Below, piece after piece: positions 30,285-53,722 of a stretch of 64,000 nt of DNA; the stretch's first letter is position 1, and each line of letters starts with the position of its first letter. The DNA is taken from positions 39,677,469 to 39,741,468 of the forward strand of contig OZ020485.1 of the NCBI GenBank assembly GCA_963971405.1, in the 5' to 3' direction. The stretch comes from Psococerastis gibbosa (lineage: Eukaryota; Arthropoda; Insecta; Psocodea; Psocidae). The notes below the pieces were generated by a model. It saw only the letters and a program-made list of their open reading frames with translations, had not been told where the DNA came from and searched no databases. The position numbers and the translations under genes were made by a program.

Positions 30285-30831
30285 TCCTGAGCCTGCTGCT
30301 GGGCAAAACTGAAAATTATTAAGCCCTTTATTAATTAATCGATGGAAGAAAATTTTTGTTAGTTATCGTATAGCCTATACTGTAGGTGCGTTTCGTATAT
30401 TAAAGTTATGATTTTAATTTTAAAGTTCTTTTTAGCCGAAAAATCCATTCCGACTTAGTCACTTGCAGATCTGGTTGAGGGGGAAGTAAATAGAACATTC
30501 AGTCCGGAACAAAGAACTATAAATATATTAACCATAATGTTATAATGAAATGCACTTAATGAATTGACGCTCACCTATACGGCTATTCTACCCCATTAAC
30601 CAATTCCCCCCCCCCCCCTCCTATGAATATATATTTACAAGGTTAGGTACCTGGTGTACCGCTGTAAGGTAAGGTTGCTCACGTCTTCATAGTGCGTGGT
30701 AGCAAAGCCAGTGGCGTAAGTGGAGTGGAGGATAATCAGCTGTGTCTGTTTACAGCTGTCAGCTGTTCGAGAGCAAGACCTCATGGAACACGGCGAGTGA
30801 ATCCGAACTTGGCCGAGTATTGCCAGTAGTG

Positions 30832-30865
30832 TCAGTGCGCGCCCGACTCTCGGAGCGCTAGGTCG
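30832..30865 (+). promoter_or_regulatory. TATA-less core promoter: Inr plus DPE
   Basis: TCAGT at 30832-30836 matches the arthropod initiator, with A+1 at 30834. GGTCG at 30861-30865 then falls exactly at +28 to +32 and matches the DPE consensus RGWYV at all five positions; +24 is G, as preferred in DPE promoters. No TATA box is seen about 30 bp upstream. The surrounding 30700-31000 is GC- and CpG-rich against an AT-rich background. The DPE spacing rule is established for Drosophila; applying it here is an inference. The putative leader is 61 nt before the ATG at 30895. Confidence 0.5.
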
Positions 30866-30894
30866 GAGTTCGATGTGAGTGAGCTTACAGTAGC

Positions 30895-30999
30895 ATGGTG
30901 CCGCAGCAAAGCGAGGCTGGCCGATCGTCCAGCCCCGTACAGTTTGGGTCCCAGCTTGTGGATAAACACTCATCAACCCCTTATACAGATGCAACACAG
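30895..30999 (+). CDS. Candidate first coding exon, unknown protein
   Basis: The ATG at 30895 has G at +4 and an in-frame stop five codons upstream (30880-30882), so it is the first start in its frame. It encodes exactly 35 codons, MVPQQSEAGRSSSPVQ onward to STPYTDATQ, and ends CACAG|GTATGTAA, a canonical donor, in phase 0. It is polar, Ser- and Gln-rich, as in disordered N-termini of regulatory or membrane proteins; I do not recognise the family. It lies 61 nt downstream of the Inr/DPE pair. Two other open frames cross it (30875-31099 + and 30635-30997 -); neither is supported by both a promoter and a donor. Later exons were not found; the intron may exceed the window. Confidence 0.5.
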
Positions 31000-32138
31000 G
31001 TATGTAATTTTTATATACAAATTAATCATAGCAATTAATTTCTTAAATTTTTTATTGACAATATTTACGTCAACGGATTGGTCAAACAGTCCCATCTAAC
31101 ATTATCACTTTCGGGTAATTTGACATAACACATCTATGTCATGTCTGTAATGTTTTTTGGTCCAATTGCACCATCTTGGCTCCATCCTATTGCTGGCTTG
31201 AGTTGCTTCACCAAGCTAACTTTGATAATTCATGGTTCCATCCAAGTCAGTGATTCTGATTGTCTAACCAGGTAGGTAAAGTCAATTCAGTTATCAATAA
31301 TCAATTTCATTGAGTGAAATTTTTTCCTCCAAATTTGAGCTCGTAGCATAGACCTGTAGCCCGAGAACTTTATTGTATATTACAAAGTCGCATCCTTCCT
31401 AAAATGTGGTAGGCAGCCTATCTATTGGAAATGCATTCAAGGTCAAGCCCATGCATATTTTTTAGAATATAGGCCTACACAGGCTACAATTTTCAAAATT
31501 CAATATTAGCGTTGTAAGGAAATGGAAATTTGGGTTCTAGGCGTATTAGCCAAGTATAGACTACTATTCTTGCTGACTTTAATGGTTAGGCTTATTTCAC
31601 AACATTGACTTCATATTCTTATTAGCCTAGAGATCATAGTTTTTCCATTACCTATCAAAATTATGAGGGTACTTACAAATATTTAGTACTCCTCTAAAAT
31701 CTATGCATCTTTCTTTAAATCTATTAACATTGCTTTTTTAACTAACTTTCATGTTTAATTCTTTGTTTTACCTATTTTGTTAAATTATTCAAATAAACTA
31801 AATTTAGGCCTTTTAAACGAACTGTTCAGTGTTACGTTTGTGCAGTTTCCACTAGATGAGCTTCTATCGTCTACAAAAGCATTTTCAACGAACTGTTCAG
31901 TGTTTCCACTAGACGAGCTTGTGTCGTGCTATAGGCTGTTTTTGCTCCTCTTTTGGGCTTTCAATATGCTACCACCTCTTTAAGGTTTTGGATTACGTTT
32001 CATTAGTTGCTAATGAAAATAAATAAATGAAAATAAAGGAAATGTCCAGATATGTGCTCTATCTATAGAATACTTACTGTATGTACTCTTTCCGTCACCA
32101 ATATGGCTACAACAATGAAATTACCAATACCTAATATG
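31000..32138 (+). other. Putative start of intron 1, mostly single-copy
   Basis: If the exon at 30895 is real, this is intron sequence. It is AT-rich and low in repeats compared with the rest of the window. A local direct duplication lies at 31822-31925 (CGAACTGTTCAGTG, TTTCCACTAGA.GAGCTT). Confidence 0.4.
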
Positions 32139-32139
32139 A

Positions 32140-32300
32140 TAATAATAATAATAATAATATTAATAACAACTTTTATTTTCCCTCAAGTATACAAATTACA
32201 ATATAATCACATTTGGAAAGACCCCCTTCTACAAAAGATAAAGTAAAATAAAATAAATGTACAATCTAATATTCAAACAATTAGATATATACAGTATCTG
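32140..32300 (-). mobile_element. Retroposon 3' end, family H, copy 2
   Basis: In inverse it matches 7008-7180: CTTTTATTTTCCCTCAAGTA, CACATTTGGAAAGACCCCC and ACAAAAGATAAAGTAAAAT. It is preceded by an ATA/AAT run that would be its tail on the minus strand. Confidence 0.6.
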
Positions 32301-32567
32301 AAAAAATAGTAAAACAAACAAGGTAATAATAAAACAAACAATAAAGTGCAAAACATAGGAAAGTAGTAGATGAGTAGAATTGTAGGTGAAACATCAATAT
32401 TACGTCTTAAGCACGTTTAATATGTATTACAATATTAATATATAGTAATTAAATAAGATAACTGTAGTAGTAAAATCCATGCTATAGCAACTAGTAGGCA
32501 TGTATTTACGTTATCGGTTGTAAAATGCGCCTGCGAATGTACGATTATGCAATTTACGTGTTGTTAT

Positions 32568-32835
32568 TCCTGGAGAATATTTCCATCTGTTGCAATGCAC
32601 AGGATAGGGCCATGGAATGTCTATTTGCCCATTTGCTGGTTAAGCAGCCCATTCACAGCCCGGCAATGAGTTCTATGAACCAATCTTCGGCATCTAGAGT
32701 TTTTCCAGGAAAATATATCCATCGGTTACAATGCAAACAGGATAGGGAATGTTTATTTCCCTATTTGCTGATTAAGCAGCCCATGCACAGCCCGACAATG
32801 AGTTCTACAAACCAGCCTTGGGCACCCAGGGTCAT
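32568..32835. repeat. Tandem duplication, about 136-bp unit
   Basis: Copy 1 (32568-32703) and copy 2 (32704-32835) share TTAAGCAGCCCAT, CACAGCCC and AATGAGTTCTA, with about 15-20% divergence by eye. The 107-codon + frame across both copies may be fortuitous: the unit has no recognised domain. Confidence 0.7.
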
Positions 32836-33500
32836 AAGTGTTGGGTAGTGATTTATGCGAGTGATTCATTGGCGGACCATGATAGGGCTTTTTTGGCTCC
32901 TTCTACTTGGATTGAGGCGTCAATTTCTCAGTTTCGAACACCACAGTCCCTTGATTGATCTATCGTTGGTAGCAAAATGGGAATGCCCCCGCTATGCGCT
33001 TTTTTTGTATAAATTCGATTTCACAGGAAATAACGATCATAGAGCCACCAAAAATCCATTGAAGAAATACTCCTCTACATTTCAATATACTATGACATGT
33101 AGCACTCACTATCGCCAATGGGCCACAATTCTTGAACTCCTTACTCGGGAATACCACACCTATCTTTTTTTAAGCAAATCAAATTGAATAATTACGGCGA
33201 ATCTGTGTTAGAAAGATGTACATCTTATCATGTATTGAAATGCTCAGAAAAATTTGTTCTGTTTGTCCTGATGTTTTTGACAGATTGATATTTCACGAGA
33301 TATTATTTGATGTTTACACTAACAGGTATAATAGTGATTTTTCCTCATCGGATTGTCTCTTAATATAGATCACAGATCCGGGAATTTTACTGACTGACAT
33401 TCATTTTGATATACTGTACATTGCATTGCGATATTGGATTTTTCTCCCGCAGTCCAAGTCTGTTTTATCTGCTGTCACTCCAACAGTTTTCTGTGTAAGG

Positions 33501-33676
33501 CAAGGACGGATACAGGAGGGGGGAGGTGGGGGGGGGGGTAGCTGCCCCCCAAAATTTGGTAAATCTATTGTAAATTAAGTTATTACGCTCTAATTTAGTC
33601 GATCCTACATAAGTTTTTCCTATTTTGACCCTCAGCTACCCCCCCCCCCCCCAAAAATGGGCTGGATCCGTCCCTG
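33501..33676. mobile_element. hAT-like MITE with perfect 8-bp TSD
   Basis: The left end is CAAGGACGGATAC; the right end complements to CAGGGACGGATCC. The flanks are identical: GTGTAAGG at 33493-33500 and 33677-33684. It contains G and C runs and no coding frame. Confidence 0.85.
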
Positions 33677-33919
33677 GTGTAAGGACTATGTATGCAAAAG
33701 GCGATATGTTCCATGAAGCTGTAAATACATAGACAAAATACTTCTAAAATGTAAATGCTTAGCTACATTGTGGGGCACAATATTTCAATTAATATTCCTT
33801 GATAATATATAAATTGAATTAGACTTTTTACAAAAAAAAAAAAAAAAAAAAATGTAGCTGTCAATGTGACGATTCCAGTGATACCAACGCAAGAAATAAT
33901 GTTATGCGACAAATCGATA

Positions 33920-34140
33920 AAGATTTGTACTTGGATAAGTCATGCTTCCATCTGTCACACTGCGCCAATGGTAAGCTTGTCACAGCTTACCCATTATTGG
34001 CTTGTAGCCGGTGAAGGTTGACATCGAGAACGCATACCATACCAGTTTGCCAATGGCCCAAAATTCTTACGGAAACAATAATGTCCGAAACCCATGGGGT
34101 CGTTGGCATTGGATAAGGGATCAATGGACCACTATTAGTA
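33920..34140 (+). repeat. Dispersed repeat family K, copy 1
   Basis: It contains GTACTTGGATAAGTCATGCT, TGACATCGAGAACGCATACC, CAGTTTGCCAATGGCC and GGGGTCGTTGGCATTGGATA. Colinear copies lie at 53470-53700 (+) and 48455-48866 (-). No protein frame is conserved among the three. Confidence 0.75.
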
Positions 34141-34149
34141 GGCTTATTG

Positions 34150-34780
34150 AAGTGAAAACTTCTTAAGAGGCGTTGAGCACTTTTGTATTATTTAGATTTT
34201 AGATGAGTGATAAAAAGGAAAATTGTGATCAAAGGAATTGCAATGTAAGAAGACTGCATCTTGAGTGTGTTCAATGATAACCGCCTGATTAATTTATGTG
34301 ACAAATCGCCTTCTGCATGCATGCTCCTCAGTCCTCACTCCTCATGTAAAGGAGGACAACAGGAGGTGTGTCAGACGACTTTGCTGTCCGCGCATTACCG
34401 TTGTCCCATTGAGCATCGGAATGTCGACATACCCGACAAAGTTATTTTGTTTACCATGATGCTGTTCGCCATCATTGAAAATTTCGCAATCCTTTTGCCT
34501 ATGTTGACACAGGCACATTTACGTTTCTACTTGTATACGCTAACCTTGACCGGAGCGTTTCCTTCTTTATTAGCATGTAGTTGACACACTATCGGAGTTA
34601 CCATTATTCCCGACATTTTTTCTCAATTACCCGTTGTATGTGCGGTATTCTTGGAGGTACATGCTTTTACGTTGCCGCGTTTATGCCAGAACCGCGTTCC
34701 CCTAAACGTTTTCTCAGGCACTGTTCACATAAATGGGCAGACAGGGCATTTGCTGCCCAGGGCGCCAAGCTTCAGGGGGG
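34150..34780. other. No gene recognised
   Basis: The 107-codon frame at 34261-34584 (+) has hydrophobic stretches near its end but no upstream or downstream support; I do not call it. Confidence 0.35.
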
Positions 34781-34784
34781 GGGG

Positions 34785-35080
34785 CGCAATTCTTCTTCCG
34801 CTTCACCCTTAGTGCCGCGTGCACAGGGGGGGGGGGGGGTCGCCCCGAACCTATTTCCTGAACTCGCTCCGGTCGGACGCTGGAGCCTTCAGCTCGGCCA
34901 TTGTTTTCCCTCTTGCTGTGGCAAGTTGTTCAATCCTTTCCTCGAGGGGTGTCCTCGTATGGGTCTTCTTTCTTGTGGCCTTGCTTCTGCCAACCTGATG
35001 GTCGTGTTCTCGTCAATCCTCTGCACGTGGCCCAACCATTGCAGCTGCTGCTTGTTCTCCATTCTTCCCCCTGGGCGCTA
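34785..35080 (-). mobile_element. Non-LTR retrotransposon tail, degraded
   Basis: The minus strand reads NKQQLQWLGHVQRIDENTTI, RLAEARPQERRPIRGHPS and RKGLNNLPQQEGKQWPS. LQWLGHVxRxDE is a standard LINE tail motif, and the following part parallels the fragments duplicated at 55.1-55.6 kb. A G run near 34824 and stops end the frame. Confidence 0.75.
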
Positions 35081-35081
35081 G

Positions 35082-36148
35082 TCGAAATGAAATAATACCG
35101 AAAAGATAAATGTGTTGTTTTAATGACCTAGGTTATACCATTGTTATAATCTGAAATACAATGCATTAACTCTCCGTAACAATTTAAAGACCAGGTTCTA
35201 AGCATTTTTAACTCCATCTCCATTATGGTGTAGCCAAAAGGACACTAAGTGAAACCCCAAGTTGCATTAAGGCAAAGGCAGAAGTAAGGGCTGCGAAACC
35301 CGACTGGCTTAGACTTGTAAAAACTGTCGTATGGTTCCTCAGATTCAGAGGTCAGGGGCCGGTGACTCTGAGGTACCATATAACACTTAAATAATAAAAA
35401 TATTTAAAAAGGATGTGAAACATTATAAAGAAGAAGGCGGGTTTTAAGTGTTCCAAGTATGTATTTGAAACCTACAAAACATTTTGGCATTGTAATATTT
35501 GTCCACGAAGGGAATATCTGCAACAATTGATGGAGGATATACGTACGTACGCGGAGCTGAAGAGGGTGCGTGCCAGGATTGATGCCACATGTTGCTACCA
35601 ACCAGCCAGCTGGCTGTAACTTGAAGAAGAATAGTTGCAGTTAGTTGTAAAATGAAACAAATAAATAAACGCATTATCAGACTGGATTACAACTTAAGTT
35701 TTCATATCCCATATATTCCACGAGCCATTTCACATTTGAGAAGGAAGAAAATAACATTCCAAGTGATAATTCCCGTAGAATATTCAGCGAAGTGTTCTCT
35801 TTGTAATAGAAATAAATAAACTCGCACACTTGGCTGCATATGCTAAGCATTAATGCGAATGCTTTACTTCTCCCCGCATAATAACGTCATTAAGTTTGAA
35901 GATAACGGCCCAGAGCAGAGGTGAAAGTGCCTGGCAGCTTTTATGGTTGTGTGCAGCGGTTCACATGTTCCGATACTTGGCTCCAAAGTTATAGCTCACC
36001 CCCCCCCCCCTCCAGTTGTGCCTATTATTACGATAGATTCAGGTCATGGATAAACTAACATATTGGTGTACTTGTGGTTTATTGCATTGGCAAGAAAATG
36101 TAGGTAATCCCTTTCATATTTTATTTTCGTTGCTCCATTCGTATCCAG
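35082..36148. other. No gene recognised
   Basis: AT-rich; frames at 35404-35674 (-) overlap each other. A C run at 36000-36010 may mark an eroded DNA element. Confidence 0.35.
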
Positions 36149-36149
36149 C

Positions 36150-36355
36150 ATATTGGTGGTTGACTTTTTTTTTTAAAAAAAGGTTAATCCCATACAAACA
36201 ATTCAATGAATGTATCCGATTAACCTCTTCAGTCACCTCACTAAGTTACCTAAACGGTACTTGTGTCGAGTAACGACACGTCTCCGATTGCATGGCGTGT
36301 ACAGACTCGCACATATACAGGCACGCTACCACCTGGCCATCGAAGTCGATGTCGA
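36150..36355 (-). repeat. Dispersed repeat family B, long copy
   Basis: The inverse of 12478-12650: AATGAATGTATCCGATTAACC, GAGTAACGACACGTCTCCGA, TGCATGGCGTGTACAGACTC and CTACCACCTGGCCATCGAAG are all colinear. A run of T and A flanks the left side. Confidence 0.7.
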
Positions 36356-36406
36356 CTTACATTGAATAAACATAATAGTTTCCTTAGTAACTTTGTAAAA
36401 CTTGCT

Positions 36407-36557
36407 GTCACTCATTGTTAAAATTAACTTACGTAAACAGATCTGTTTTCAATCGCACTTGACGATGGCGTGAGTCGAAACCGGTGGTGTATTTTTTTAA
36501 TTTTATTTTATTACGAAAAAACTATACGAAGTTAATTTTAACAATGAGTGACTTACA
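36407..36557. repeat. Short inverted-repeat element with PLE-like centre
   Basis: Arms GTCACTCATTGTTAAAATTA (36407) and TAATTTTAACAATGAGTGAC (36537) are perfect inverted copies of at least 20 bp. The centre contains a hammerhead-like core (36459-36485). The whole is 151 bp. Confidence 0.75.
36459..36485 (+). ncRNA. Hammerhead-ribozyme-like core
   Basis: It reads TTGACGA-T-GGC-GTGA-GTC-GAAA-CCGGT. The first box differs from CUGANGA only by U for the first C; stem II would be GGC/GTC (with a G-U pair) closed by GTGA. The trailing GAAACCGGT also occurs at 48981, where the first box is lost. This pattern is characteristic of Penelope-like terminal regions; catalysis is unproven. Confidence 0.4.
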
Positions 36558-36559
36558 TT

Positions 36560-37300
36560 GAATTTAATTGAAAACCAAAAGGCGAACAATAAGACTATAA
36601 AGTCTTGTTTTCATGCTAACCCTACATTGTGAACGAGCCTTCGGTGGAAAGCATATTATAAAACAGTTATTTTTCAGACAATACGAGTTGATAAATAATT
36701 ACACTGTCAGCGACTAAATTATTTGAATATGTTATTGCTGAGGACTAATTTTCGTGCAATTAAGCCCGGTACACGACACACGGACGATTGTGTCAGTCGC
36801 GATTTGCCAACGTCTTTTCCATGTAGCCATAAGACTAGCAGAAGATTTCTTCTGAAACGCATTTCTGAGTTGGTTAACTTTGTTATATAGCTATTATAAT
36901 ATTATTATATTATATAATTGCTTTGTAATATTTACATTTATTTCAATTATTTATTATATCACAAGCAATAACTGTAAATTTTTAACAGTAGAATAACCAA
37001 AATTAACAAAACCTATAAACAAACGTGGTAGGCTGCTAAAATAGAGTTCTGCCACTCATTAAACAGTGCCACGAACGTCCTGACTCTTACTACGTTGTTT
37101 AGTCTGTAAAATATTTTCGATTTAGCATTATAACTCACCCCGAGGTCCGCTTACGATTGTGTGTTAACTTGGATAACACTTTTAACAATCTAACTCGATA
37201 ACACCGACATTGTGAAGTCCCTTAAAATTTTATTGCTTGCTTGCTTTAATGCTTACGGGGTGTAAGATATTGTTTGGACTTACATTCGGTGCAAGTATTT
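36560..37300. other. No gene recognised
   Basis: AGACTATAAAGTCTTGTTTT at 36592 and TTCATGCTAACCCTACAT recur as AGACTATAAAGTCTTCTTTT inside the element at 37310, so an unnamed retroposon tail is shared. No coding signal. Confidence 0.4.
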
Positions 37301-37309
37301 CGTTGGAAC

Positions 37310-37759
37310 CAAGAGTGGATCCAGCAGAAAATTTAGGGGGGGGGGGGCACAAGTTGTATGTAAGTTTAAAAGGTAATTGTTTTGAATTGAATTCGACTTT
37401 ATTGAATAAAAACAAAACAAACGGCGAAGAATAAGACTATAAAGTCTTCTTTTCATGCTAACCTTAAAAACAAACATATTGCATATTAATACATAGATGC
37501 TTAAAATTAAACAGAGAAGAAACAAGAGAAGAAGAGGGGGGAAGAAGGTTAAGGGGGGGGGGCAAAGGGAATCCATTGTCGTCACCATTATGAGACCGGA
37601 GAGTCTCAAGCGTTATCTACAATATGTTGTTTAATAATTTTCTTGCAGCTACTGAGTGAACTAGCTAGAATTTTGTTTAAAATTTGAGTTTTATTAATTT
37701 TTTTATTATTATCATATGAATATACACCCCCCCCCCCCCCCCCCGTGGATCTGCCATTG
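37310..37759. mobile_element. hAT-like element (CAAGAGTGGATCC family)
   Basis: The left end CAAGAGTGGATCC and right end (complement CAATGGCAGATCC) match the 4922 family. Flanks GTTGGAAC (37302) and CTTGGAAC (37760) agree at 7 of 8. The interior includes a retroposon-like segment shared with 36.6 kb and several G and C runs. Confidence 0.7.
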
Positions 37760-37764
37760 CTTGG

Positions 37765-38508
37765 AACCTACTACCTACTGCGTGTCCTCAAATGCATGTT
37801 ATTATTTAATGTTGGTTTGTAAATTTTAACCCAGGGCAATGAGCGGTTTTACGCGATCGTAGATAGCTTCGATTGAGGCGTTGAAGTGCGAAACGTCATT
37901 AATTGAGGTCACTGGCCCTGTTCAATTAAATGAGTCATAACACCGTTTTCATGAAGTAGAGTTTGATGTTACCGCTTCTTCTTCTGACGGTGTTCTCGTG
38001 TCGCCGTGGAGGGAACATGACTCACCCATTTTTAGCTTGTGACTGATGACATTATGAGCCAGATTTATCCAGACTCATTTTTTGCAGTCCTTATTATTCT
38101 CTTTTGTGGAGGGCTTTAAAATGTATAAATTTTAAAATAAAGTTCGAAATATACTTCATATAATGAGTAATGAATATTAAATATTATATTGAACGACAAT
38201 AAAGTAATTTATAAAAAAAAAAAAACAGTCAAATTCAAATCAGTCGAGATCAAATTGGACGAAAACAAATGCCTATGGGGGCCCCTAAGGATTTCCCGTG
38301 TTTTTTAAGTAAAGAATATTATAGTCATTGTTAAATGCTCAATAAACCCTCAATAGCTGCACACCTACACTTGTTCAACTTGCCCCTTCAACTTGCGTTT
38401 CAACAACGAATCAGCTACGTGAGATTCTTGTCGCTCATTGGTTACTCACATGTGAGGACGTCGAACTGACAACGCAAAAGGATATACAGAAAAATAAACA
38501 AAGAAATA
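37765..38508. other. No gene recognised
   Basis: TTGAAGTGCGAAACGTC near 37880 loosely resembles the right half of the hammerhead-like motif but lacks a usable first box. Otherwise AT-rich single-copy sequence. Confidence 0.35.
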
Positions 38509-38511
38509 ATA

Positions 38512-38645
38512 ATAATCTTTCTTTCTTTCTTTCTTTTCCTTGTTCAGTATTCCCTGGACAAGGAGCATATATTACAAAAATACAATACATAATAATACCA
38601 TCCTGCATCCCCAAGCTAACGCTTATTAGGGACAAAAGACTCATA
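38512..38645 (-). mobile_element. Retroposon 3' end, family J, copy 1
   Basis: In inverse it shows CTTTCTTTCTTTCTTT, TATTCCCTGGACAAGGAGCA, AATACAATACATAATAATAC and CATCCCCAAGCTAACGCTTA or close variants. Copies are at 38905-39065 (-) and 56860-57018 (+). GAAA repeats mark the 3' tail. Confidence 0.7.
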
Positions 38646-38751
38646 CAGTGCTGCTAAACAAGGCTTAATCATTTATTTTTGTTATTTATTTATAATGTTT
38701 ATTTTATTTTATTTTAACTTGTTATTTTAATGTCAGTTTTTATTATTATTA

Positions 38752-38905
38752 TTAACTCCCATTGACCAGCCATCTTTTTATACCCGCTTTTAAGTCACCC
38801 ATCTGTTTAAATTTTTTCATTTGTGGAGGAAGTTCATTAAATATCTTTGGTATAAGTACTTTGTTTAATCTCTCTCCGTATTTGTTATATGTTATCTCAA
38901 ACTTA
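38752..38905 (-). mobile_element. Non-LTR retrotransposon C-terminal fragment (CR1/L2-like, tentative)
   Basis: The minus-strand frame reads KFEITYNKYGERLNKVLIPK, then IFNELPPQMKKFKQMGDLKA, then GIKRWLVNGS and a stop at 38752. T.YG.......P.IFNELP.......F...K..WL is the typical closing segment of many invertebrate LINE reverse transcriptases. Family J sequence abuts it upstream. The clade call is tentative. Confidence 0.65.
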
Positions 38906-39065
38906 ATAATCTTTCTTTCTTTCTTTCTTTTCCCTGTCCAGTATCCCCTGGACAAGGAGCATATATTTACAAAATACAATAACTTACATAATAATACCAT
39001 AATATTATAATAATAACATCCCGCATCCCCAAGCTAGCGCTTATTTGGGACATAAGACTCATAAT
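38905..39065 (-). mobile_element. Retroposon 3' end, family J, copy 2
   Basis: CTTTCTTTCTTTCTTTTCCC, GTATCCCCTGGACAAGGAGC and CATCCCCAAGCTAGCGCTTA match copy 1 about 390 bp away in the same orientation. Confidence 0.7.
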
Positions 39066-39287
39066 AATAATAATACGTGTATTTAACCAAAAAAAACATT
39101 TGACATTCTTCTAATAACCTGTGCCACAAAGCCAATAAATGAATAAATAAATGAACCCAATGTGAATGAGAAACGATTAAGAGTTGTTATTAATGAGTTG
39201 TTATTAATGTATCTTGTTATTTTTTATAGCATTAATATTCACTCAAATCGTCCCTAGACTAACCTACAACTTAAATAGGCCCCCCCA

Positions 39288-39405
39288 GGCGCGGATCTAC
39301 GGGGGGCTATGGGGCTATAGCCCCCCCCCCCCCAATTTGGGTCCTCAAAATGCGTAAAACCCCAATATTTCAGCCCTATTTAAAAAAAAAAAAAAAAAAA
39401 AAACT
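39288..39405. mobile_element. Remnant of a poly-C DNA element
   Basis: CAGGCGCGGATCTACGGGGG, GGGGCTATAGCCCC and TTGGGTCCTCAAAATGCG followed by an A run. The left terminus is hAT-like; no right terminus is visible. Confidence 0.4.
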
Positions 39406-39714
39406 AAACTAACTATTCCGGTCCCACATGTCCAAGTCCGGCACTGAAAAGACAATTAAACTACATAATAAGCAAGACATTACAAGGTGAAACTGCTCCA
39501 GCCTTTAGCCTTCAGACTCTCCCAAGAAGAACTGTCCTTGGAAGTTGGAACTAGGAAAGAAAGACGAGCACAAAAAAAAATGTGGGGTTGCGCGACAGGG
39601 GTGAAACAGTTCCGACCCCCTGCTAGGTCCATCGCTACCTGCACCAACACCAAATAAAACCGGGTGAAGGAATGGCTCCATAAGACCAAAAATCATAACG
39701 TTCTCGCTCTTAAG

Positions 39715-40085
39715 GGCAAGCCGGAGTCGCCTATATTCCATTTTCTGTTCAAACTTTAATGTCTCATGAAATATGGAACGCAGAACAATGAAAAAATGCT
39801 GAATGGCAAGAAGAATTTTTTCTCCTAATTTTGATGTGGCCTTAACTAACCCCAATTCGCCACAGTCGATGAACTCCTTCAGCTTGAACTCCTGAGTGAC
39901 CGTTATTTTTTACTTATCAAGTTCACTAACTATAGCCGATCAGTATTGATGATTGCAACATACTATGCATCAAAATTAGGGGAAAAAAATTCTTCTTTCC
40001 ATTCAGCATTTTTTCATTGTTTTGCGTTCCATATTTCATGAGAAATTAAAGTTTGCACAGAAATATCGGCGACTGGGGTTTGCCG
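39715..40085. repeat. Large inverted repeat, about 125-bp arms
   Basis: The left arm (39715-39840) contains TCATGAAATATGGAACGCA, CAATGAAAAAATGCTGAATG and TCCTAATTTTGATG; the right arm (39958-40085) contains their inverses CATCAAAATTAGG, CATTCAGCATTTTTTCATTG and TGCGTTCCATATTTCATGA. The loop is about 115 bp. The minus-strand frame 39505-39855 partly lies in the left arm and is not supported as a gene. Confidence 0.8.
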
Positions 40086-40118
40086 TTAAATTATGCATTC
40101 ACTTAGGTGAGGCCTTAC

Positions 40119-40248
40119 CAAGGACGGATACAGGGGGGGGGGGGGCAGGAGGGTTGCTGCCTTTATTACGCTTTGATTTAATCGATCCTACATGTGTTTT
40201 TCCTATTTTGACACACCACTCCCCCCAAATGGGCTGGATCCGTCCCTG
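40119..40248. mobile_element. hAT-like MITE with perfect 8-bp TSD
   Basis: The left end CAAGGACGGATAC and right end (complement CAGGGACGGATCC) are flanked by identical GGCCTTAC at 40111-40118 and 40249-40256. A G run of about 13 bp follows the left end. Confidence 0.85.
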
Positions 40249-40387
40249 GGCCTTACCTTAAATCAACCCGGACTTTCAGCCATCATCTTAGTAAATACAA
40301 TGCGACACTGTACGAAGATTTAACATCATATTAATATATAATCCTTCAGTGGATTACTTAAATGCGTTATTTGTACGTACTATCTAA

Positions 40388-40826
40388 GGCCCCCATTCCA
40401 CATACGTACAACGTCAATGAAAATTATGAAATTGAAGGACATTTCAATTCCTCATGGATGGGGGCCATTCCATATGTTTTTTCAAAAATTGACGATTTTC
40501 AATTGAAGCATATGCGCCAAATTTTTGAAATTTGTTTGCATTTGTTTCTTGAAATTGTATTTGTTTTCTTCGTCGCCTTATTATTTAAACCTTATTATAA
40601 TTTTTATACAGAAATGCTTTCTTTTTAGAGAAATCAATTAAAATAGTTGTACTTGTCATATCCCATGACGCCATTTTTTAATTTTAGATTGTTTGTTTCA
40701 TTGTTTGTGATTTTACTCTATGATCAATTGATCATTGATCAATTTTAACAATGGCATAGAGTAAAATTGAAATGTCCTTCAATTTCATAATTTTCATTGA
40801 CGTTGTACGTATGTGGAATGGGCGCC
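40388..40826. mobile_element. PIF/Harbinger-like MITE, copy 3
   Basis: The left end GGCCCCCATTCCACATACG and right end (complement GGCGCCCATTCCACATACG) continue as a TIR of about 65 bp through ACGTCAATGAAAATTATG and ATTGAAGGACATTTCAAT. Flanking TAA at 40385-40387 and 40827-40829. The core around 40640-40760 is shared with the copies at 11.4, 14.3 and 44.3 kb. The 88-codon frame inside is fortuitous. Confidence 0.85.
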
Positions 40827-41229
40827 TAAGCCCGAGCAGCCGATCTTAGTGAAATGCCATAAAAAATGTTCCTTCATGTAATTATTATGCATGACGATGT
40901 CTGGTCAATGGTCAGCCTTATGGGCAGCATATTGCACAATGTTGACTTATTCCATTACTTCCCATGGCAACACGACCGCTGATAACCTAACCCCAGTGCA
41001 ATACTATTAAATTGGATTATGTCCTATATAGGAAGTGTTTTGCGATAAGATAAGGGAATAATATTTCTTGTTGTGTCTGGATCATTTTCTGCGGTATGAT
41101 GAATATATATACTATGTTATTGAAGGATTCATTTCTTTTAATTTTATTCACTTCAACAAATTGGGCGGCTTAATTGTTGTGTTAGTCTTTGCCCAAAAAA
41201 TGGGAAATGGTGCAATTGTGATGAGTTTT

Positions 41230-41640
41230 TCTCACATTTTTATTTCCATCATTGGTACCAATCCTTCTTCCGAGGTCCGAATCTCAACGGTTGGCACCGG
41301 CATATCATCATCCAGCTCTCTCAGTCCTGCGTCTTCCTCTTCAGCTCTTGGCACGTTCGAGCTCCAGCGTCGTCCTTCAGTTAGTCCATGAATTGCTTCT
41401 TCGGCCGGCCTCTCTGTTGGTTCCTCCCGCTGTGCCATCAATGATGGTGTGTACCTAGATTTTGGTGTTTTAATAAATGCACTACCCATTTCGCTCTTCT
41501 ACTTTTTATATGAGGTAGCAGCTGTCTCTCTTCTCCAATGTCCAAATTCTATCATTGGTCACGTGGTCCCTCCAGCTGATCTGTGGCATCCTTCTGTAAC
41601 ACCAAACGCTTCAATCCTATCAGAAGTTAAAGTTATCCAA
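41230..41640 (-). mobile_element. Non-LTR retrotransposon tail, frameshifted
   Basis: Across several frames the minus strand gives RIEAF, YRRMPQISWRDHVTNDRIW, then RRAKWVVHLLKHQNLGTH, then QQRGRPKKQFMD, colinear with the fragment at 25440 (RRAKWMGHLLRHENLV, RRGRPKKEFMDQ). At least two frameshifts and several stops show it is dead. The 85-codon open frame at 41232-41489 is the wrong frame. Confidence 0.8.
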
Positions 41641-41644
41641 TTAT

Positions 41645-42335
41645 AAAAGTCCCCCTCTTTTTTTTCTATTTTGGGGTGCGTTTTTTGCGTATACACTTAA
41701 ACCTTGTGGTCTTTTGTGGCCCCTAGTTCACAACACCCATTCCTTTATAATATAAAGGGTCTAGAAATAAAGGAAGCTAGGGTCTTGCGGGAATGTACCT
41801 TTTTCAGGGTGAACTTTTTGTAGCCAAAGGTAGCTGAACTAAGTCTATTATACGGTATACTGTACGTTGGCTTCGCTATGGTCGGGATATTCCTTACTAA
41901 AGCGTAGCCTCTCAACCGTCCCACAAAATTATGTACCAATCCCATAAGACTAGCAATTGTTTACTGTACGGCAGGTTTATGCAATCATGAATCATTGAGA
42001 CTGTTGGAAATAGCAGAAAAAGGGTGTACAGCGTTCAAATTGCTGGGTCTGCATGTTGCTGCCAGTCGTTTCTTACAAGAAGCACTGTCCATTGTCTACT
42101 GACTATGCCCCCATCCCTGTAAGCTTTAAGCTGGAAGGTATATAGTACAGTTCAGAAGAAAACTAAAACAACATCTTCTTGAGAAATGCTGGTATGTTGA
42201 GGACATGATGTGGAACTAGGCAACCATTTGTGATAGCCGATATATTCTTCTTATTTTTCTCATTGCTGATAGTATTGATAACTGATATTTGTCGTGTTTT
42301 GTACGTTGTCGGTATATATAAATTATAGTTGTTTT
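41645..42335. other. No gene recognised
   Basis: AT-rich, short chance frames only. Confidence 0.35.
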
Positions 42336-42337
42336 TT

Positions 42338-42392
42338 AAGGTTAATCGCATGCAAACAAAGTAATGAATGTATCTGATTTACCTCTTGGACT
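42338..42392 (-). repeat. Dispersed repeat family B, short fragment
   Basis: AAGGTTAATCGCATGCAAAC, TAATGAATGTATCTGATTTA and CCTCTTG match the inverse of the family's 3' end. Confidence 0.6.
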
Positions 42393-42504
42393 TTTATTCA
42401 AAATGAATCAATAGAGATATTTTCTATGATATTCTATACAATAAATTATTAAACATATTAAAATGTGTGTTTAAATGCAATCAAAGTCAAACACAATTTC
42501 CAGC

Positions 42505-42535
42505 CATAATATAATATAATATAATATAATATAAA
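42505..42535. repeat. Microsatellite (ATAAT)n
   Basis: About six head-to-tail ATAAT units. Confidence 0.8.
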
Positions 42536-42644
42536 TATAATACCTTAGTGTCCGTGTTCCATTCAATTTCAGAGTTACTACTACTATGCGATAATATTAA
42601 TATTGGCTTTGCAGTATGATAAAATCGCGTAAAAATTATTATTG

Positions 42645-42690
42645 AAGAACCAGTAGAATCCGGCCGTGAAAGCCTTTGCAGTTACAAAAT
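42645..42690. repeat. Rearranged fragment of repeat F
   Basis: GAAGAACCAGTAGAATCCGG is joined directly to CCGTGAAAGCCTTTGCAGTT, two pieces also present at 7957-8010 but there in a different arrangement. It sits about 20 bp from the end of the inverted Penelope-like copy. Confidence 0.55.
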
Positions 42691-42699
42691 TATTATTAT

Positions 42700-42971
42700 T
42701 ATGATATTATCAATAAACAAAAAATAACAAAAACTTAGAGTTTTAGAAAAACTTGTTATAACAACCCGAATTAGTAAAACCCAAATAATCGTTAAGAAAT
42801 TAACTTTGTCTAAGAAACCCACTTGTGTTAGTATAAAACCCTGAGCGCTTTCGGCAAGAACTGCCATCTACAGAGGGAAACCCACTAGCACAGTTACACC
42901 TTATCTGCGATTTGAGACTTGCTCAACTCGAGGAGAAGATGCTAATGTGACTAGGGAGAGGAAACCTTGGT
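42700..42971 (-). mobile_element. Penelope-like element 3' region, inverted copy
   Basis: In inverse it is nearly identical to 21425-21680, including TTGAGCAAGTCTCAAATCG, the hammerhead-like core (42846-42873) and TTCTTAGACAAAGTTAATTT. It ends in ATT-type repeats near 42700. Confidence 0.85.
42846..42873 (-). ncRNA. Hammerhead-ribozyme-like core, second PLE copy
   Basis: The minus strand repeats the 21523 core unchanged: CTGTAGA-T-GGC, AGTTCTT, GCC-GAAA-GCGC. Both copies share the A-to-U change in the first box, so it was in their common source. Confidence 0.4.
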
Positions 42972-43260
42972 TTATATAGGACTGGGAGGAGGGGGTGGGA
43001 GGGGGCGTGGCTGGTTACCTATTCCTAACTTACTAGCTAGATCTATTAGAGGGGATGATTGTGTGAATGTTATGTCGTTTGTTAATTTTTCCCTATTGTG
43101 TAAAGCTCTTTTGATTTCAACATTTTCAAAAAAATTTAAAGTGTAACTTTTCTTTATTTTGTGTAGGGCTGTCCAATTGTGAGGATCGAATGTGTGATTT
43201 TCCGAGTTAAGGTGTTTCGCGAATGTGCTGTTGGTGTTGGTGTCTCCTATACCTGTTACT
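42972..43260 (-). pseudogene. Penelope-like element GIY-YIG fragment, inverted copy
   Basis: From about 43256 the minus strand reads TGIGDTNTNSTFAKHLNSEN, then HTFDPHNWTALHKIKKSY, then IKRALHNREKLTNDITF, ending with a TAA at 42972-42974. It matches 21140-21424 almost residue for residue, but the YIGQTGR strand is cut off by the breakpoint at about 43258. The proline-rich end is shortened by a few residues. The open frames called in the opposite direction here are shadows. Confidence 0.8.
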
Positions 43261-43276
43261 GTTACCTGTTACTGTT
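43248..43276. repeat. Breakpoint with short tandem filler
   Basis: CCTGTTACTGTTACCTGTTA and CTGTTACC repeat a CTGTTAC unit at the junction between the inverted and forward Penelope-like copies. Confidence 0.6.
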
Positions 43277-43400
43277 ACCACAAGTGGGTTTCTTAGACAA
43301 AGTTAATTTCTTAACGATTATTTGGGTTTTACTAATTCAGGTTGTTATAACAAGTTTTTCTAAAACTCTAAGTTTTTGTTATTTTTTGTTTATTAAAATG
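43277..43400 (+). mobile_element. Penelope-like element 3' end, forward piece
   Basis: ACAAGTGGGTTTCTTAGACA, TTAACGATTATTTGGGTTTT and TTTTTCTAAAACTCTAAG are the exact inverse of 42712-42835, so the two form inverted arms of about 120 bp around the GIY-YIG fragment. Confidence 0.8.
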
Positions 43401-43699
43401 AAATACCACGATGTCACGAGCAATCTAATTATTTATGATATTATCAAGTCTATACTCATTTGGACATGGAAATCCCCCAACGTAAAATATACAAAGGGCT
43501 TGAATCGTCAAGATCAAGAAACTCTTGTGATAGACCGTTTCTTATCAGCAAATATCGTAAATTTTACCCGTTGAGTTTAGTTATTTCATTTCGTTGATAA
43601 CCATAATGAATGTAAAAATTATTTTAGTCAGGCTACTTAACCTGAGTAGCTTTTCAATTGCCAATTAATTTTTTAATTAGCAATAAAGCACGACTGGTT

Positions 43700-43885
43700 A
43701 GATAATTAATACTTCAGCTTTTGCAAAATTGAGAGTCAAACGTATTAAGAGGACATACTACGTGGATAATAATTAGCACCCCTAATTGTGTTATTTTTAT
43801 TTACTTTTTTATTTTGGGGTGTCAATTTTCTTCCTCTTAATTACACTTCAGCTGTTGCAAAATCGAGAGTTAAACGTGTTAACTG
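43700..43885. repeat. Diverged direct duplication
   Basis: ACTTCAGCTTTTGCAAAAT with GAGAGTCAAACGTATTAA (about 43711-43750) recurs as ACTTCAGCTGTTGCAAAAT with GAGAGTTAAACGTGTTAA (about 43845-43884), a direct repeat at about 134-bp spacing. Confidence 0.6.
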
Positions 43886-44251
43886 CATTAGGAAAATAAT
43901 TGGAAAATCATTGTATTGCAGAGTTGAAGCAGAAACTGAGTGGGTGTGGTCACCTAAGAATGTCAGTCGCATGAGACGTTTTGTTTGGTTAAATTCTTGG
44001 TGATTTTCCGAATCAGAGGATTTGGATAGTGAGTTTCAAAAATTGGGTGTCCAACGAAAGTTGTGGGTGACTTTGTCATTTTCTATAGTTTTGTAATTTT
44101 AGCTTCCCAAAAAATGCTGTAAACATCAGTATTAAGATTAATTACGCTTTCTAAGTTAGCCAGCAGCCAATAGCTTTTAATTATTATAAAATCCGCAAGC
44201 TTTGGCGTCTCTATAACTTACTTCGCAAAGTGGCTCGATATACTGTACTTA

Positions 44252-44678
44252 GGCGCCCATTCTACATACGTACAACGTCAATGAAAATTATGAAATTGAA
44301 GGACATTTCAATTTCTCATTGATGGGGGCCATCCATATGTTTTTCAAAAATTGACAATTTTCAATTGAAGCGTATGCGCCAAATTTTTGAAATTTCTTTC
44401 TTGAAATTGTATTTGTTTTCTTCGTCGCCTTATTATTTAATCCTTGTTATAATTTTTATACAGAAATGCTTTCTTTTTAGAGAAATCAATTAAAATAGTT
44501 GTACTTGTCATATCACATGACGCCATTTTTTAATTTTATATTGTTTGTTTCATTGTTTGTGATTTTACTCTATTATCAATTGATCATTGATCAATTTTAA
44601 CAGTGGCATAGAGTAAAATTGAAATGTCCTTCAATTTCATAATTTTCATTGACGTTGTACGTATGTGGAATGGGCACC
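44252..44678. mobile_element. PIF/Harbinger-like MITE, copy 4
   Basis: The left end GGCGCCCATTCTACATACG and right end (complement GGTGCCCATTCCACATACG) are flanked by TTA at 44249-44251 and 44679-44681. The sequence is colinear with copy 3, apart from a deletion of about 15 bp on the left side. Their high similarity suggests a recent common source. Confidence 0.85.
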
Positions 44679-44875
44679 TTATATCGTTCCGTATTGTGGT
44701 TGTTTTTTCTCATGTTTATTGTGTTTTTCTCCCTTCTTTTTTTGCATTTATTCAGCCATATTTTATGTATCATATTATTCTAACATTCTAAACTGTTTTA
44801 AATTAATATCCTTGGGGGACCCCCTACCACTAATTAATGTAATATGCTGTTGACCTGATGTAATGCTGTAGTAGT

Positions 44876-45112
44876 AGTAGTATGGTTGGACACAGTCCCA
44901 GGCCACGGTGTGGGCCCATAGGACTCCAGTGGACCTCCTGATTATAGTGGATTCCGAACCACTTGGGAAACACATTGAAGTCACACGATTAGTTCGGAGG
45001 TGACCAGGACAAGTCCTACCATGTTTCCCTACCGGCACTATGCACACGCCCAATTTATCTGCAGCTTTGAACCTGCTCTGGTCCGCTGGATTCAACTTGG
45101 TATGGCGGCCGG
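44876..45112 (+). mobile_element. Repeat G (232-bp retroposon-like element), copy 1
   Basis: It runs from GTATGGTTGGACACAGTCCC through ATTCCGAACCACTTGGGAAA and TCCTACCATGTTTCCCTACC to CAACTTGGTATGGCGGCCGG. It is nearly identical to 46199-46430. An AGTAGTAGTAGT stutter precedes it. The minus-strand frame 44775-45095 is a shadow. Confidence 0.8.
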
Positions 45113-45124
45113 CTAAATAATGCT

Positions 45125-46078
45125 GTAAAGTTCTTATATTATTGTATTAGGTGTTCTCATGTAAAAGTTCTTGCACAGTATTATGACAGCCAGTCTTTCC
45201 TGATGCTGAGCCTGCCACTCTACAAAGTCTTGTTTATTTGACCTTGTAAACGTCAAACATCCGTTTGTTTGAGGAGGACCGTTGTGATAAGCGTTCAGGT
45301 ACCGTACTCAACTGAGTACCAAGTACCGACTTGCACCGAGCACTGGTATACTTCCCATCCATGTTTTTGTTGACGTAAATGGGTTATGGGTTCAAATACC
45401 AGCGTTTACCACACACAATGAAATCATAAATTAATATTATTAAATTGATGAAAAATAAAAAATGGTTTCAAACAAATTTTTCGAATATTTTACTCTGTAA
45501 AAAAAAAAATTAAATAATTTATAAGGAAGTTGATTGTTGATATTGTAGGATACATAATATACACCCCTTGATCCCTCAATTGTTTTGTTGTTTTATGTAT
45601 TTATGTATTTATGTATAATGTATTTATGTTTTATGTATTTTTTTTAAATTTAATATGTAAAGGATTTTGTCTAACATTGATTCGATTTAATATTTATTCG
45701 ATCGAAGAAATATTTGGATTGTCTATTATTTATATCCGATTTATCTGATTTTTTTGAATTCAGATATTAAACGTTTCAATTTTTCTTAGAACCATATTTA
45801 TTGGATCAAATATTAGAACAATATTATATAAGTGGGTAATCAGGTGGTAATGTAAAGGATTATTTCCGACATATACTACTATTATAATACGATAAATATA
45901 TTATATTGAGTATATATTGTAGTATATTATATATTTTAGTTTTGGTGCAGGAAAAATTATAACACAAAAATTAAAAATACGTTATAAGTGGCGTATAACG
46001 CAGTTCTCTATGCAACGTATAAATAAACCAAATCATTATAATTTACGTAGCCTATTAAATGAAATAAAAAATATAAAT
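45125..46078. other. No gene; very AT-rich
   Basis: Contains TGTATTTATG tandem stutters near 45594-45640 and TATATA-type runs near 45890-45940. No coding signal. Confidence 0.45.
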
Positions 46079-46198
46079 CGAGTTCGAGTCCTACACTTCC
46101 TACATTTTCTTCGGAGGGCATGTAAAGCAGGCGGTCCCGGGACTTCCTAGTTGAGTGTTGAGGCTATATAGCCCTAATTCCGCTAGGTTGGCTTAGTA
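46079..46198 (+). mobile_element. SINE family A, left part of a split copy
   Basis: CGAGTTCGAGTCCTACAC (B box GTTCGAGTCC), CGGAGGGCATGTAAAGCAGG and CTTCCTAGTTGAGTGTTGAG lead to CGCTAGGTTGGCTTAGTA, where repeat G interrupts. The right part resumes at 46431. Confidence 0.85.
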
Positions 46199-46430
46199 GT
46201 ATGGTTTGACACAGTCCCAGGCCACGGTGTGGGCCCATAGGACTCCAGTGGACCTCCTGATTACAGTGGATTCCGAACCACTTGGGAAACACAGTAAAGT
46301 CACACGATTAGTTCGGAGGTGACCAGGACAAGTCCTACCATGTTTCCCTACCGGCACGTGCACACGACCAATTTATCTGCAGCTTTGAACCTGCTCTGGT
46401 CCGCTGGATTCAACTTGGTATGGCGGCCGG
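46199..46430 (+). mobile_element. Repeat G inserted in a SINE, 18-bp TSD
   Basis: The 232-bp repeat is flanked by two identical copies of CGCTAGGTTGGCTTAGTA (46181-46198 and 46431-46448). A perfect 18-bp duplication points to target-primed (LINE-driven) retroposition. On the minus strand it holds GGTTCGGAATCC, loosely like a tRNA B box, but I cannot place an A box. The insert ends GGCGGCCGG with no A tail. The frame at 46319-46552 is a shadow. Confidence 0.85.
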
Positions 46431-46482
46431 CGCTAGGTTGGCTTAGTAATAGAACAAAAAAGTCAATATTTATTTATTTATT
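46431..46482 (+). mobile_element. SINE family A, right part of a split copy
   Basis: CGCTAGGTTGGCTTAGTAAT, AGAACAAAAAAGTC and a TATTTATTTATTTATTT tail complete the SINE interrupted at 46198. Confidence 0.85.
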
Positions 46483-46489
46483 TAAATCA

Positions 46490-47224
46490 ACAGATTTTGA
46501 GGTGATTGAGGGGTGGTCAATAAGTACGGTCAGTTTCCTTTTAGCAACTTAAAATATGGGGTAGCAGTTTATGCTATTTTTTATGCCCAAATTGGGAAAA
46601 GGGTAGGCTACATAGCAATTTATTTAAGGTTAGTGAAATCACTATCATCTTCCCTCCCAACTCAGCACTCTAGGGGTAATAAAGGTTCTATATATCTGTC
46701 ACTATCTTTATTTATTTCCATTAACCAGTGAGGAAGTTCTCACAGGCAAGTGTTTTCTTGTTTACTTTAGTGGTACTTTTCCACCAATACACAGATACTT
46801 TTATTGCAGGTTGAACTGTAGACCTACTTTTTTTTTTTACTTTAAAGAGACGATTGTTCATCTCTGACTATACAGTGCTACCTGAGTGCCTAACCCTACT
46901 GCAAAAATGGATTAATAGGGGGGGGGGGGGGCGTGCATTAACGAAAAGAAACGCATAATCGCCTGTTTAAGTCCATGAAGATATTTACTTGGAGAGATAA
47001 GGGTTGGGTGGCGGTTTTGTGCTCAGTAGGATGTAAAAAATAGATATTGATAATAATAATAAAGTCTTTATGGAAAATAATAATAATGTAGATACAGCGA
47101 GATTAGGGCCTATGGACCTCTCTTACACCTAACTGTACATTTCACCCCTAGATCACTCAAAATCAGTCAGTTTCTATTATATACTTAATTAACTACGTAA
47201 GCTATATTGGTCTATCCATGTTGA
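46490..47224. other. No gene recognised
   Basis: A G run lies at 46918-46932, and near 47050-47150 there is a weak AATAATAAAGTCTTTATGG segment resembling 61255-61330, a short retroposon tail. No coding signal. Confidence 0.4.
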
Positions 47225-47227
47225 AGA

Positions 47228-47428
47228 AGACTACATGATACAAAATCCCGAAAGGTTGTTGGTTTGAGTCCCACATTACCTACATTTTCTGGCCATGCTA
47301 CGGAGGACATGTAAAGCAGGCGGTCCCGGGCCTTCCTAGTTGAGTGTAAGAGAGGGCTTCATAGCGCTAACTCTGCTAGGCTGGCTTAGTAATAGAACAA
47401 AACATTCAATCTTTATTTATTTATTTAA
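47228..47428 (+). mobile_element. SINE family A with B box
   Basis: CCCGAAAGGTTGTTGGTTTG (B box GGTTTGAGTCC, one change), CTACATTTTCTGGCCATGC, GGACATGTAAAGCAGGCGG, CTTCCTAGTTGAGTGTAAG, CTGGCTTAGTAATAG and a TTTATTTATTTATTT tail. The A box is eroded. Confidence 0.85.
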
Positions 47429-47744
47429 TTTAATATCATAGGGTATTTTTACTTTTTGCTGCTGCCATTTCTCCATAAACTCTATAATGCCTGAAATGTT
47501 ATTTCATTAAATAATTACAAAACCAAAAAATTAAAAATACCATACGATATTTTTGTATGAAGTAGCCCTTTACAACTAGCATAGACCAAATCTTTACAAC
47601 TTACATTGTTGATAGTAAATGAAATAAAAATTAAAAACCGATTCATCCGGGAATAACCTCATAATCCTCATTATTTCCAGATTAGAAATAAATTGGTTGC
47701 AATTGGTTGGCTTACCTTCTCCGTTATAAACAACAAATGCCTTG

Positions 47745-47982
47745 CAGCCCCCCCCCTCCCCCAAAATTTAGTAAACATATTATTGTAAGTTAATTAGTAC
47801 ACGGGAACCTTTGGAATACCCCCTTCACAATTGTAAAACTACCTAATTATTAATTGTACATTTATGTTGATAAATATACGATTTTCATTTCATTTTCACA
47901 CTCTAATTTAATCGAAACTACATATGTTTCTTCTATTTTGACCCACAAATGCCCCCCCCCCCAATGGGCTGAATCCGCCCCT
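47745..47982. mobile_element. hAT-like remnant lacking its left end
   Basis: The right side reads CCAATGGGCTGAATCCGCCC and CTG like the 33501 family, and the left side has AAAATTTAGTAAACATATTA as in that copy. The left terminal repeat is missing and no duplication is visible. Confidence 0.45.
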
Positions 47983-48454
47983 GGCCCCACCCCCATCCTA
48001 TAATGTCAAGTGCCAGCACCACCCACCATAGTAACGTAGCGACAACAATGCATAGTAATATTGGAAAGCGAAATGACTATGGTAATGTGAGTGAAGGCAT
48101 GTTCTCCAGTGATTGGCGGGTTGGATCAATTTCAAGGCCAGGTACACGGTTGACTCATTGGCCTTCACCTCAACACTGACCTCTGTATGTGCGACGATTA
48201 ATTATTACGGGAAGTGGGGCGTAAGCGAGCATTACCGCGTTGCCAACTATTGGCAGGCAGTGGTAGTGCTTTAGTTTTTTTCTTAAACAGAAAGTCCCCC
48301 ACAAGAACGATAGGGGATAATTTATAGCACATTAATATCGGACGCAACTCACTCGAGACGAGTATAGACTCGTCACCTCGTAAAATTGAGTTTCTATCTA
48401 GTAAATAACTTATCAGGAGGTAATAGTAGTAGTTATAATGACCTCAAGGACTTT

Positions 48455-48667
48455 TTATGAACCCATAGGTCCCTTGTCCAATGCCGACGACCCCATGGAT
48501 TTCGGACGTTATTTGTATTGTTTCCGTATACATTTTTGGTCATTGGCAAATTGGTACACGTCCTCGATGTCAACCTACACCGGTTACAAGCGCGATAATG
48601 GATACGCTGAGACAAAGCTTACCATTGACGCAATGAAACAGACGAAAGTATGGCTTAACCAAGTACA
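48455..48667 (-). repeat. Dispersed repeat family K, copy 2 (interrupted)
   Basis: It is the inverse of 53470-53700: CCATAGGTCCCTTGTCCAAT, GCCGACGACCCCATGGATTT, GGCAAATTGGTACACGTCC and AAGCTTACCATTGACGCAAT. The copy continues after the hAT-like insert as CAAGTACAGATACGAG (48836-48866). A + frame of 94 codons (48438-48722) runs through it, but its reading is not conserved in the other copies. Confidence 0.75.
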
Positions 48668-48835
48668 CAAGGCCGTAGCCAAGGGGGGGGGTTCATGGGG
48701 GTTCAACCCCCCCCCCCTATGAAATGGCTTGATACTAGATAGAATCGGATTTTGAGAGAAAAAATAAAAACCACTTTGTGAAATTTCCACCCCCCCCCCC
48801 CCCCCGCGCCAAAAAAAATCCTGGCTACGGCCTTG
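48668..48835. mobile_element. hAT-like MITE with perfect 8-bp TSD inside repeat K
   Basis: The left end CAAGGCCGTAGCC and right end (complement CAAGGCCGTAGCC) are identical 13-bp inverted repeats. It is flanked by CAAGTACA at 48660-48667 and 48836-48843. Three G or C runs are internal. Removing it restores the repeat K sequence seen at 53470, which proves the insertion polarity. Confidence 0.9.
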
Positions 48836-48959
48836 CAAGTACAGATACGAGTCGAAATGGCTAGGGATCGAGGGATATTGTATTTCTATAGTGTTTTGTT
48901 TATAACGTGACAATCTTAATGTAAAGCCAATAACTTTTTTAATTTTAATTTTTATCTGC

Positions 48960-49010
48960 TCACTTGACAGTTACAATTAGCCGAAACCGGTTGTGATGAA
49001 TGTTTTTTTA
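48960..49010 (+). repeat. PLE-like terminal motif, degraded
   Basis: TTGACAGTTACAATTAGCC followed by GAAACCGGTTGTGATGAATG parallels the core at 36459 (GAAACCGGT), but the CUGANGA box is destroyed. Confidence 0.4.
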
Positions 49011-49014
49011 TGTA

Positions 49015-49698: not shown

Positions 49699-49699
49699 T

Positions 49700-50875: not shown

Positions 50876-50879
50876 TTTC

Positions 50880-52235: not shown

Positions 52236-52240
52236 TCTGA

Positions 52241-52534: not shown

Positions 52535-52544
52535 GTGAGTAAAA

Positions 52545-53700: not shown

Positions 53701-53722
53701 GGCTAGGGTTATAAAATGTCCT

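Follow-up and report, generated by a model that had tools for sequence, protein, structure and literature searches.

Does a short open stretch in this DNA, preceded by promoter-like letters and closed by a splice donor, mark the 5′ end of a live host gene, and if so, of which gene? The window, i.e. the whole stretch of 64,000 nucleotides that was analyzed, was placed by genome search at C2:39677469-39741468 of the 409-Mb assembly. An earlier note had proposed an initiator (Inr) and a DPE at exact spacing ahead of a 35-codon first exon with a canonical donor and a long first intron, all of this in the one CpG-rich island of the window.

Signals from the proposed start to the splice donor

Inspection letter by letter confirmed the described signals. 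TCAGT at 30832-30836 places A+1 at 30834, a G is present at +24 (30857), and GGTCG at 30861-30865 conforms to the DPE consensus RGWYV at +28 to +32, exactly 27 bp from A+1. Downstream, an in-frame TGA at 30880 precedes an ATG at 30895, from which 35 open codons run to 30999 and end in CAG/GTATGT, with the GT at 31000 and in phase 0. The letters of the earlier observation thus stood, and its claim of a single CpG-rich island did not, as several stretches of similar strength exist. Among 250-bp windows, 30691-30940 holds 19 CpGs and is tied with those at 34631 and 23861; more CpGs (20-23) were counted in non-overlapping windows at 52231, 8021, 62441 and 24731, all of them except 62441 consisting mostly of in-window repeats. 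The GC-rich stretch spans about 30566-30962. Over the coding part of exon 1 GC content is 55%, and over the next 61 bases, past the donor, it is 15%, a contrast at the 99.98th percentile, although the likeliest breakpoint lies at 30962 with an interval of 30938-31005 that includes position 31000.

Table 1. Features of the proposed gene in window coordinates
Feature	Position	Strand	Remarks
Three CAGCTG E-box sites	30737..30765	.	69 to 97 bp ahead of the putative A+1
47-bp segment with Inr, DPE and uORF ATG	30831..30877	+	43/47 copy elsewhere
Initiator-like TCAGT	30832..30836	+	proposed A+1 at 30834
DPE-like GGTCG	30861..30865	+	+28 to +32
ATGTGA start-stop uORF	30873..30878	+	in the proposed leader
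Coding part of exon 1 (predicted)	30895..30999	+	35 codons, N-terminus MVPQQSEAGRSSSPVQFGSQLVDKHSSTPYTDATQ
Intron 1 (predicted)	31000..64000, on to 77489 beyond the window	+	donor GTATGT at 31000, acceptor before 77490

The ATG of exon 1 has an A at -3 and a G at +4. With a matrix for donor sites, 9 of the 3567 GT sites on the plus strand, the donor itself included, score as high as GTATGT at 31000 or higher. When codon usage was trained on the Sox HMG exon described below, exon 1 ranked fourth among the 375 ATG-opened stretches of 35 open codons in the window. Several results count against the exon. Its amino-acid likelihood was only mildly better than that of shuffles, 16% of which reach it, and RNY codons were fewer in the coding frame (7) than in the other frames (9 and 11). 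Searches of PDB and Pfam gave no match to the 35-residue peptide, and strings taken from it were not found in literature text.

The full set of signals (Inr, DPE, ATG exon and donor) occurs once in the window, each signal being weak alone. By chance, TCAGT plus DPE should turn up about 1.0 times on a 64-kb strand, and it was found once on the plus and twice on the minus strand; the pair alone is at chance level. Shuffles of 30640-31012 contained an ATG-opened run of at least 35 codons in 42%, Inr plus DPE in 2.5% and at least 20 codons leading to a good donor in 0.7% of cases, and the whole set together in 0 of 5000. All chance tests were framed post hoc, with the case already seen, and they are therefore supporting evidence and not proof. 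A chance alignment of these signals in a GC-rich stretch is very unlikely. Such a reading can draw on the frequency of each signal alone, on the 24 of 150 block-shuffled windows that held a phase-0 ATG exon of at least 30 codons ending in a good donor, and on looser full sets, which appeared in 3 of 50 simulated strand pairs (whole-window control with Inr plus DPE, ATG and at least 20 codons to a donor) and in 2 of 20 block-shuffled windows under looser core-promoter rules. It is opposed by the finding that Inr plus DPE accompanied an exon of at least 30 codons in 0 of the 150 shuffled windows and by a same-strand, phase-compatible HMG exon downstream.

The downstream HMG exon and the gene model

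The flanking DNA examined comprised 100 kb downstream and 40 kb upstream of the window, together with 10 kb around a 47-bp match elsewhere in the genome. The longest open reading frame in the 140 kb of flanks, L004:3367-4422 on the plus strand (352 codons), encodes a complete Sox HMG box (PF00505, positions 1-69; 91.1 bits against a cut-off of 25.4; E 6e-26). The whole box lies in one open frame, that is, without an intron inside it. The HMG-coding exon begins at L004:3490 (77490 in window numbering), 13.5 kb beyond the window end and on the same strand as exon 1; after the box follows a long tail, which no Pfam model matched, and a stop codon at L004:4423-4425. The acceptor in front of it, TTCTTTTGTTTCAG/ACC, ranks 9 among 2363 AG sites by a matrix for acceptors, and a TAAC is located 22-25 nt ahead of the exon start.

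Donor and acceptor are both in phase 0, and joining them yields a frame of 346 residues closed by a stop codon (...SSTPYTDATQ/TKKHNPNHIKRPMNAFMVW...). Between 1 and 77489 the plus strand holds only two ATG-opened phase-0 exons that are at least 10 codons long and have such a donor at their end; the second, at 12624, has 16 codons and poor codon usage. The assumption of a live host gene with a long first intron is thus supported by a same-strand HMG exon with a strong acceptor and matching phase 46.5 kb downstream, and the gene call of the earlier note is very likely right. With high confidence we assign 30895-30999 to SoxC as its first coding exon, connected by a predicted splice. In the proposed course of expression, a TATA-less promoter would be used by Pol II, which would probably initiate near 30834 and produce a leader with a start-stop uORF. 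Translation from 30895 would provide a 35-codon N-terminus. By a phase-0 splice across a predicted intron of 46,490 bp, which takes up all of the right half of the window, this N-terminus would be joined to a single large exon (window numbering 77490-78425) that supplies the HMG box and the tail.

If the SoxC promoter were instead situated near the HMG exon, translation would begin at the in-frame ATG L004:3469 (MGFLLFQTKK...) and 30832-30999 would have no part in the gene. The frame is indeed open from L004:3367, and this ATG has an A at -3 and a G at +4. The six codons past it, however, make up the pyrimidine tract and the CAG of a strong acceptor; in a real N-terminus this would be a strange coincidence, and we regard this arrangement as very unlikely.

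A further exon could lie within the 46.5-kb interval between the predicted first coding exon and the HMG exon. None of the 102 plus-strand ORFs of at least 50 amino acids starting right of 31000 contained a believable Pfam domain, and neither did the 150 longest of the 211 ORFs of 30-49 amino acids. A DUF2953 match right of 31000 (E 0.0043) and the one NCBIfam match among the 102 ORFs (E 0.0042) were taken as chance. No published description of SoxC intron length was found in the article text searched.

The assignment to SoxC is based on the HMG box. Its best PDB matches were SOX4 (132 bits), SOX11 (131), SOX2 (117), SOX9 (107), SOX17 (103) and SOX5 (99), with identities of 62/77 to SOX4, 61/77 to SOX11 and 50/77 to SOX2. 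The genome yielded 27 HMG matches, four of which span the whole model (L018-L021); the comparison with SOX4, SOX11 and SOX2 covered 20 of the 27, the other seven being left out. Among the four full-length matches, only the SoxC candidate (L020; 339 against SOX4, 291 against SOX2) was nearer SOX4/SOX11 than SOX2, while the other three were nearer SOX2. Several partial boxes (L027-L031, L034-L037) were also nearer SOX4 or SOX11 than SOX2, but reached at most 163 against SOX4. Five of these (L027, L034-L037) are not Sox-like, and the remaining four (L028-L031) look like what we take to be members of Sox groups D, E and F with a box split by an intron. Because the other full boxes are nearer SOX2 and the partial ones score far lower or are not Sox-like, L020 is, as judged by similarity, the one clear SoxC gene among the HMG matches examined.

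Two further groups of HMG boxes were observed. Four boxes nearer SOX2 than SOX4 (L019, L021, L022 and L026) are located on one strand within about 240 kb (C3:33527795-33768085), consistent with a Group B Sox cluster. Two similar boxes on opposite strands, 46 kb apart (L028 and L029; C12:18399446 and 18352946), both match HMG positions 1-41, each with one TAA inside, and perhaps represent duplicated SoxE genes in which the box is split.

The predicted protein shares with known SoxC members (vertebrate SOX4, SOX11 and SOX12; Drosophila Sox14) the box with 62 of 77 residues identical to SOX4 and the lack of an intron in the box. A conserved transactivation domain at the C-terminus is a mark of the group. 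In vertebrates, SoxC proteins start with MVQQ and have a short acidic domain at their end, which MVPQQ and GSHFDFNPDASDML of the predicted joined protein may resemble. Vertebrate SoxC genes are intronless, whereas here a short N-terminal exon would be separated by a 46.5-kb intron from the HMG exon. Some genes of Sox groups D, E and F have an intron inside the HMG box, and Drosophila has a single SoxC gene, Sox14 (PMC6307133). In a moth, a SoxC study targeted exon 2, and the SoxC gene of this moth therefore has at least two exons (PMC9309532). In flies SoxC is described as responding to ecdysone, and in other arthropods as being expressed in neural tissue (PMC6307133, PMC5994082). The likely 5′ coding end of SoxC is placed by our model 46.5 kb upstream of the HMG exon, where it would easily be missed by gene predictors. 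Reading raw sequence for core-promoter and donor signals can thus find a short first exon that is very likely real. The biology is ordinary, another instance of a known gene, and of mild interest for its very long first intron and an odd partial copy of its promoter.

The proposed core promoter and its partial copy

The initiator fits TCAKT but not the full TCAKTY, its sixth base being G instead of Y, and no TCAKTY plus DPE pair exists on the plus strand of the window. With G at +2 the motif has the Inr-G form, which in Drosophila has been tied to a stably paused polymerase (PMC6483594). GGTCG includes G(A/T)CG, the DPE motif rated as most trustworthy in Drosophila, where a 27-bp spacing between Inr and DPE is required (PMC1538597). 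The arrangement thus resembles Drosophila TATA-less Inr-DPE promoters in TCAGT, in the G(A/T)CG core and in the spacing (PMC1538597, PMC6483594), and differs from them in the sixth Inr base and in an Inr base that is changed in the 47-bp copy described below. Use of this Inr-DPE pair as a core promoter is plausible, and transcription probably starts at the putative site 30834.

Alternatively, exon 1 may belong to SoxC with transcription starting elsewhere, either upstream or dispersed over about 30566-30962, so that the Inr-DPE spacing is coincidental. This reading, which is compatible with the rest of the SoxC explanation, is a possibility of real weight, though somewhat doubtful. The expectation of about one Inr plus DPE pair per strand by chance, the G in place of the Inr A in the other 47-bp copy and the incomplete match to TCAKTY speak for it, while the exact 27-bp spacing, the G(A/T)CG core, the location just upstream of a coding exon and the low share of shuffles of the stretch containing the pair speak against it.

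Assuming a start at 30834, the leader contains an AUG that the earlier note had missed, in ATGTGA at 30873, 16 nt before the main ATG; this start-stop uORF may affect translation. The three CAGCTG E-boxes (30737, 30753 and 30760) are possible proximal regulatory sites, a function suggested by motif and position. Three copies within 30 bp occurred in 0 of 60 controls, which were unmatched for CAGCTG abundance, and CAGCTG is a common word in the window (31 against 7.9 expected).

The earlier note had also raised the prospect that the same 170 bp is found many times in the genome as a repeat. A genome search of 30640-31020, in which match counts are lower bounds, listed no match elsewhere other than one 47-bp piece, which argues against a many-copy repeat. 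The copy lies on the minus strand at C1:30689040-30689086 (L002 1501-1547) and is identical at 43 of 47 positions to window 30831-30877. At three of the differences the window has CpG and the copy TpG; the fourth concerns the Inr A, where the window reads CAG and the copy CGG. Each of the four thus lies at a CpG/TpG/CpA step. No third copy was present in the window, its 140 kb of flanks, the 10 kb around the copy or among the genome matches listed. A tRNA-derived SINE head, considered by look, was discarded, as neither copy had an Rfam tRNA match at E values up to 10.

The sequence within 400 bp of the copy includes stretches repeated elsewhere in the DNA compared. In the 10 kb around it, L013:697-975 and 3273-3575 on the plus strand match successive parts of MutL_C (E 0.0018 and 0.00061, under the curated cut-off), and L013:697-975 matches MLH3 chains in PDB at E 0.033. 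Because of these weak successive matches and the MLH3 match, an MLH3-like gene seems to have exons here, some 3 to 6 kb from the copy and on the strand opposite to the copy's sense. The copy may have arisen by stray duplication of the promoter, or it may be what is left of an old dispersed sequence. That the presumed core promoter itself (about -3 to +44) is an old dispersed piece, whose Inr A perhaps arose by decay of TCGGT to TCAGT, is unlikely. If true, the core promoter of a developmental gene would have come from a mobile or duplicated fragment and been completed by a CpG change.

Further content of the window and its flanks

A bidirectional promoter or minus-strand gene was considered and rejected, as scans of the minus strand revealed no equivalent set of signals. 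With Pfam searched up to E 1, a minus-strand ORF overlapping the locus (30638-31021, 128 codons) gave no match. Another minus-strand ORF (L015 7770-8201), some 12 kb upstream of the window, may resemble a nicalin exon but had no significant Pfam match.

Second copies inside the window exist for 24% of its length, and 30279-32562 is the third-longest stretch without one. Dispersed repeats include 27073-27805/58729-59432 and 21132-21692/43258-42707. At 55077-55549, within the predicted SoxC intron, a 244-bp unit is repeated in tandem (1.9 copies, 93% matches).

In the rest of the window, where 142 of 164 ORFs of at least 62 amino acids were scanned, OTOS (E 0.0003), AgrB, GIY_YIG_2 and TRAP_alpha each had a single weak match, which was attributed to chance. 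The only believable Pfam match was a C2H2 zinc finger (zf-H2C2_2, 57 bits) encoded by an ORF at 57800-58180 on the minus strand, antisense within the predicted SoxC intron. This ORF may represent a nested gene or a fragment.
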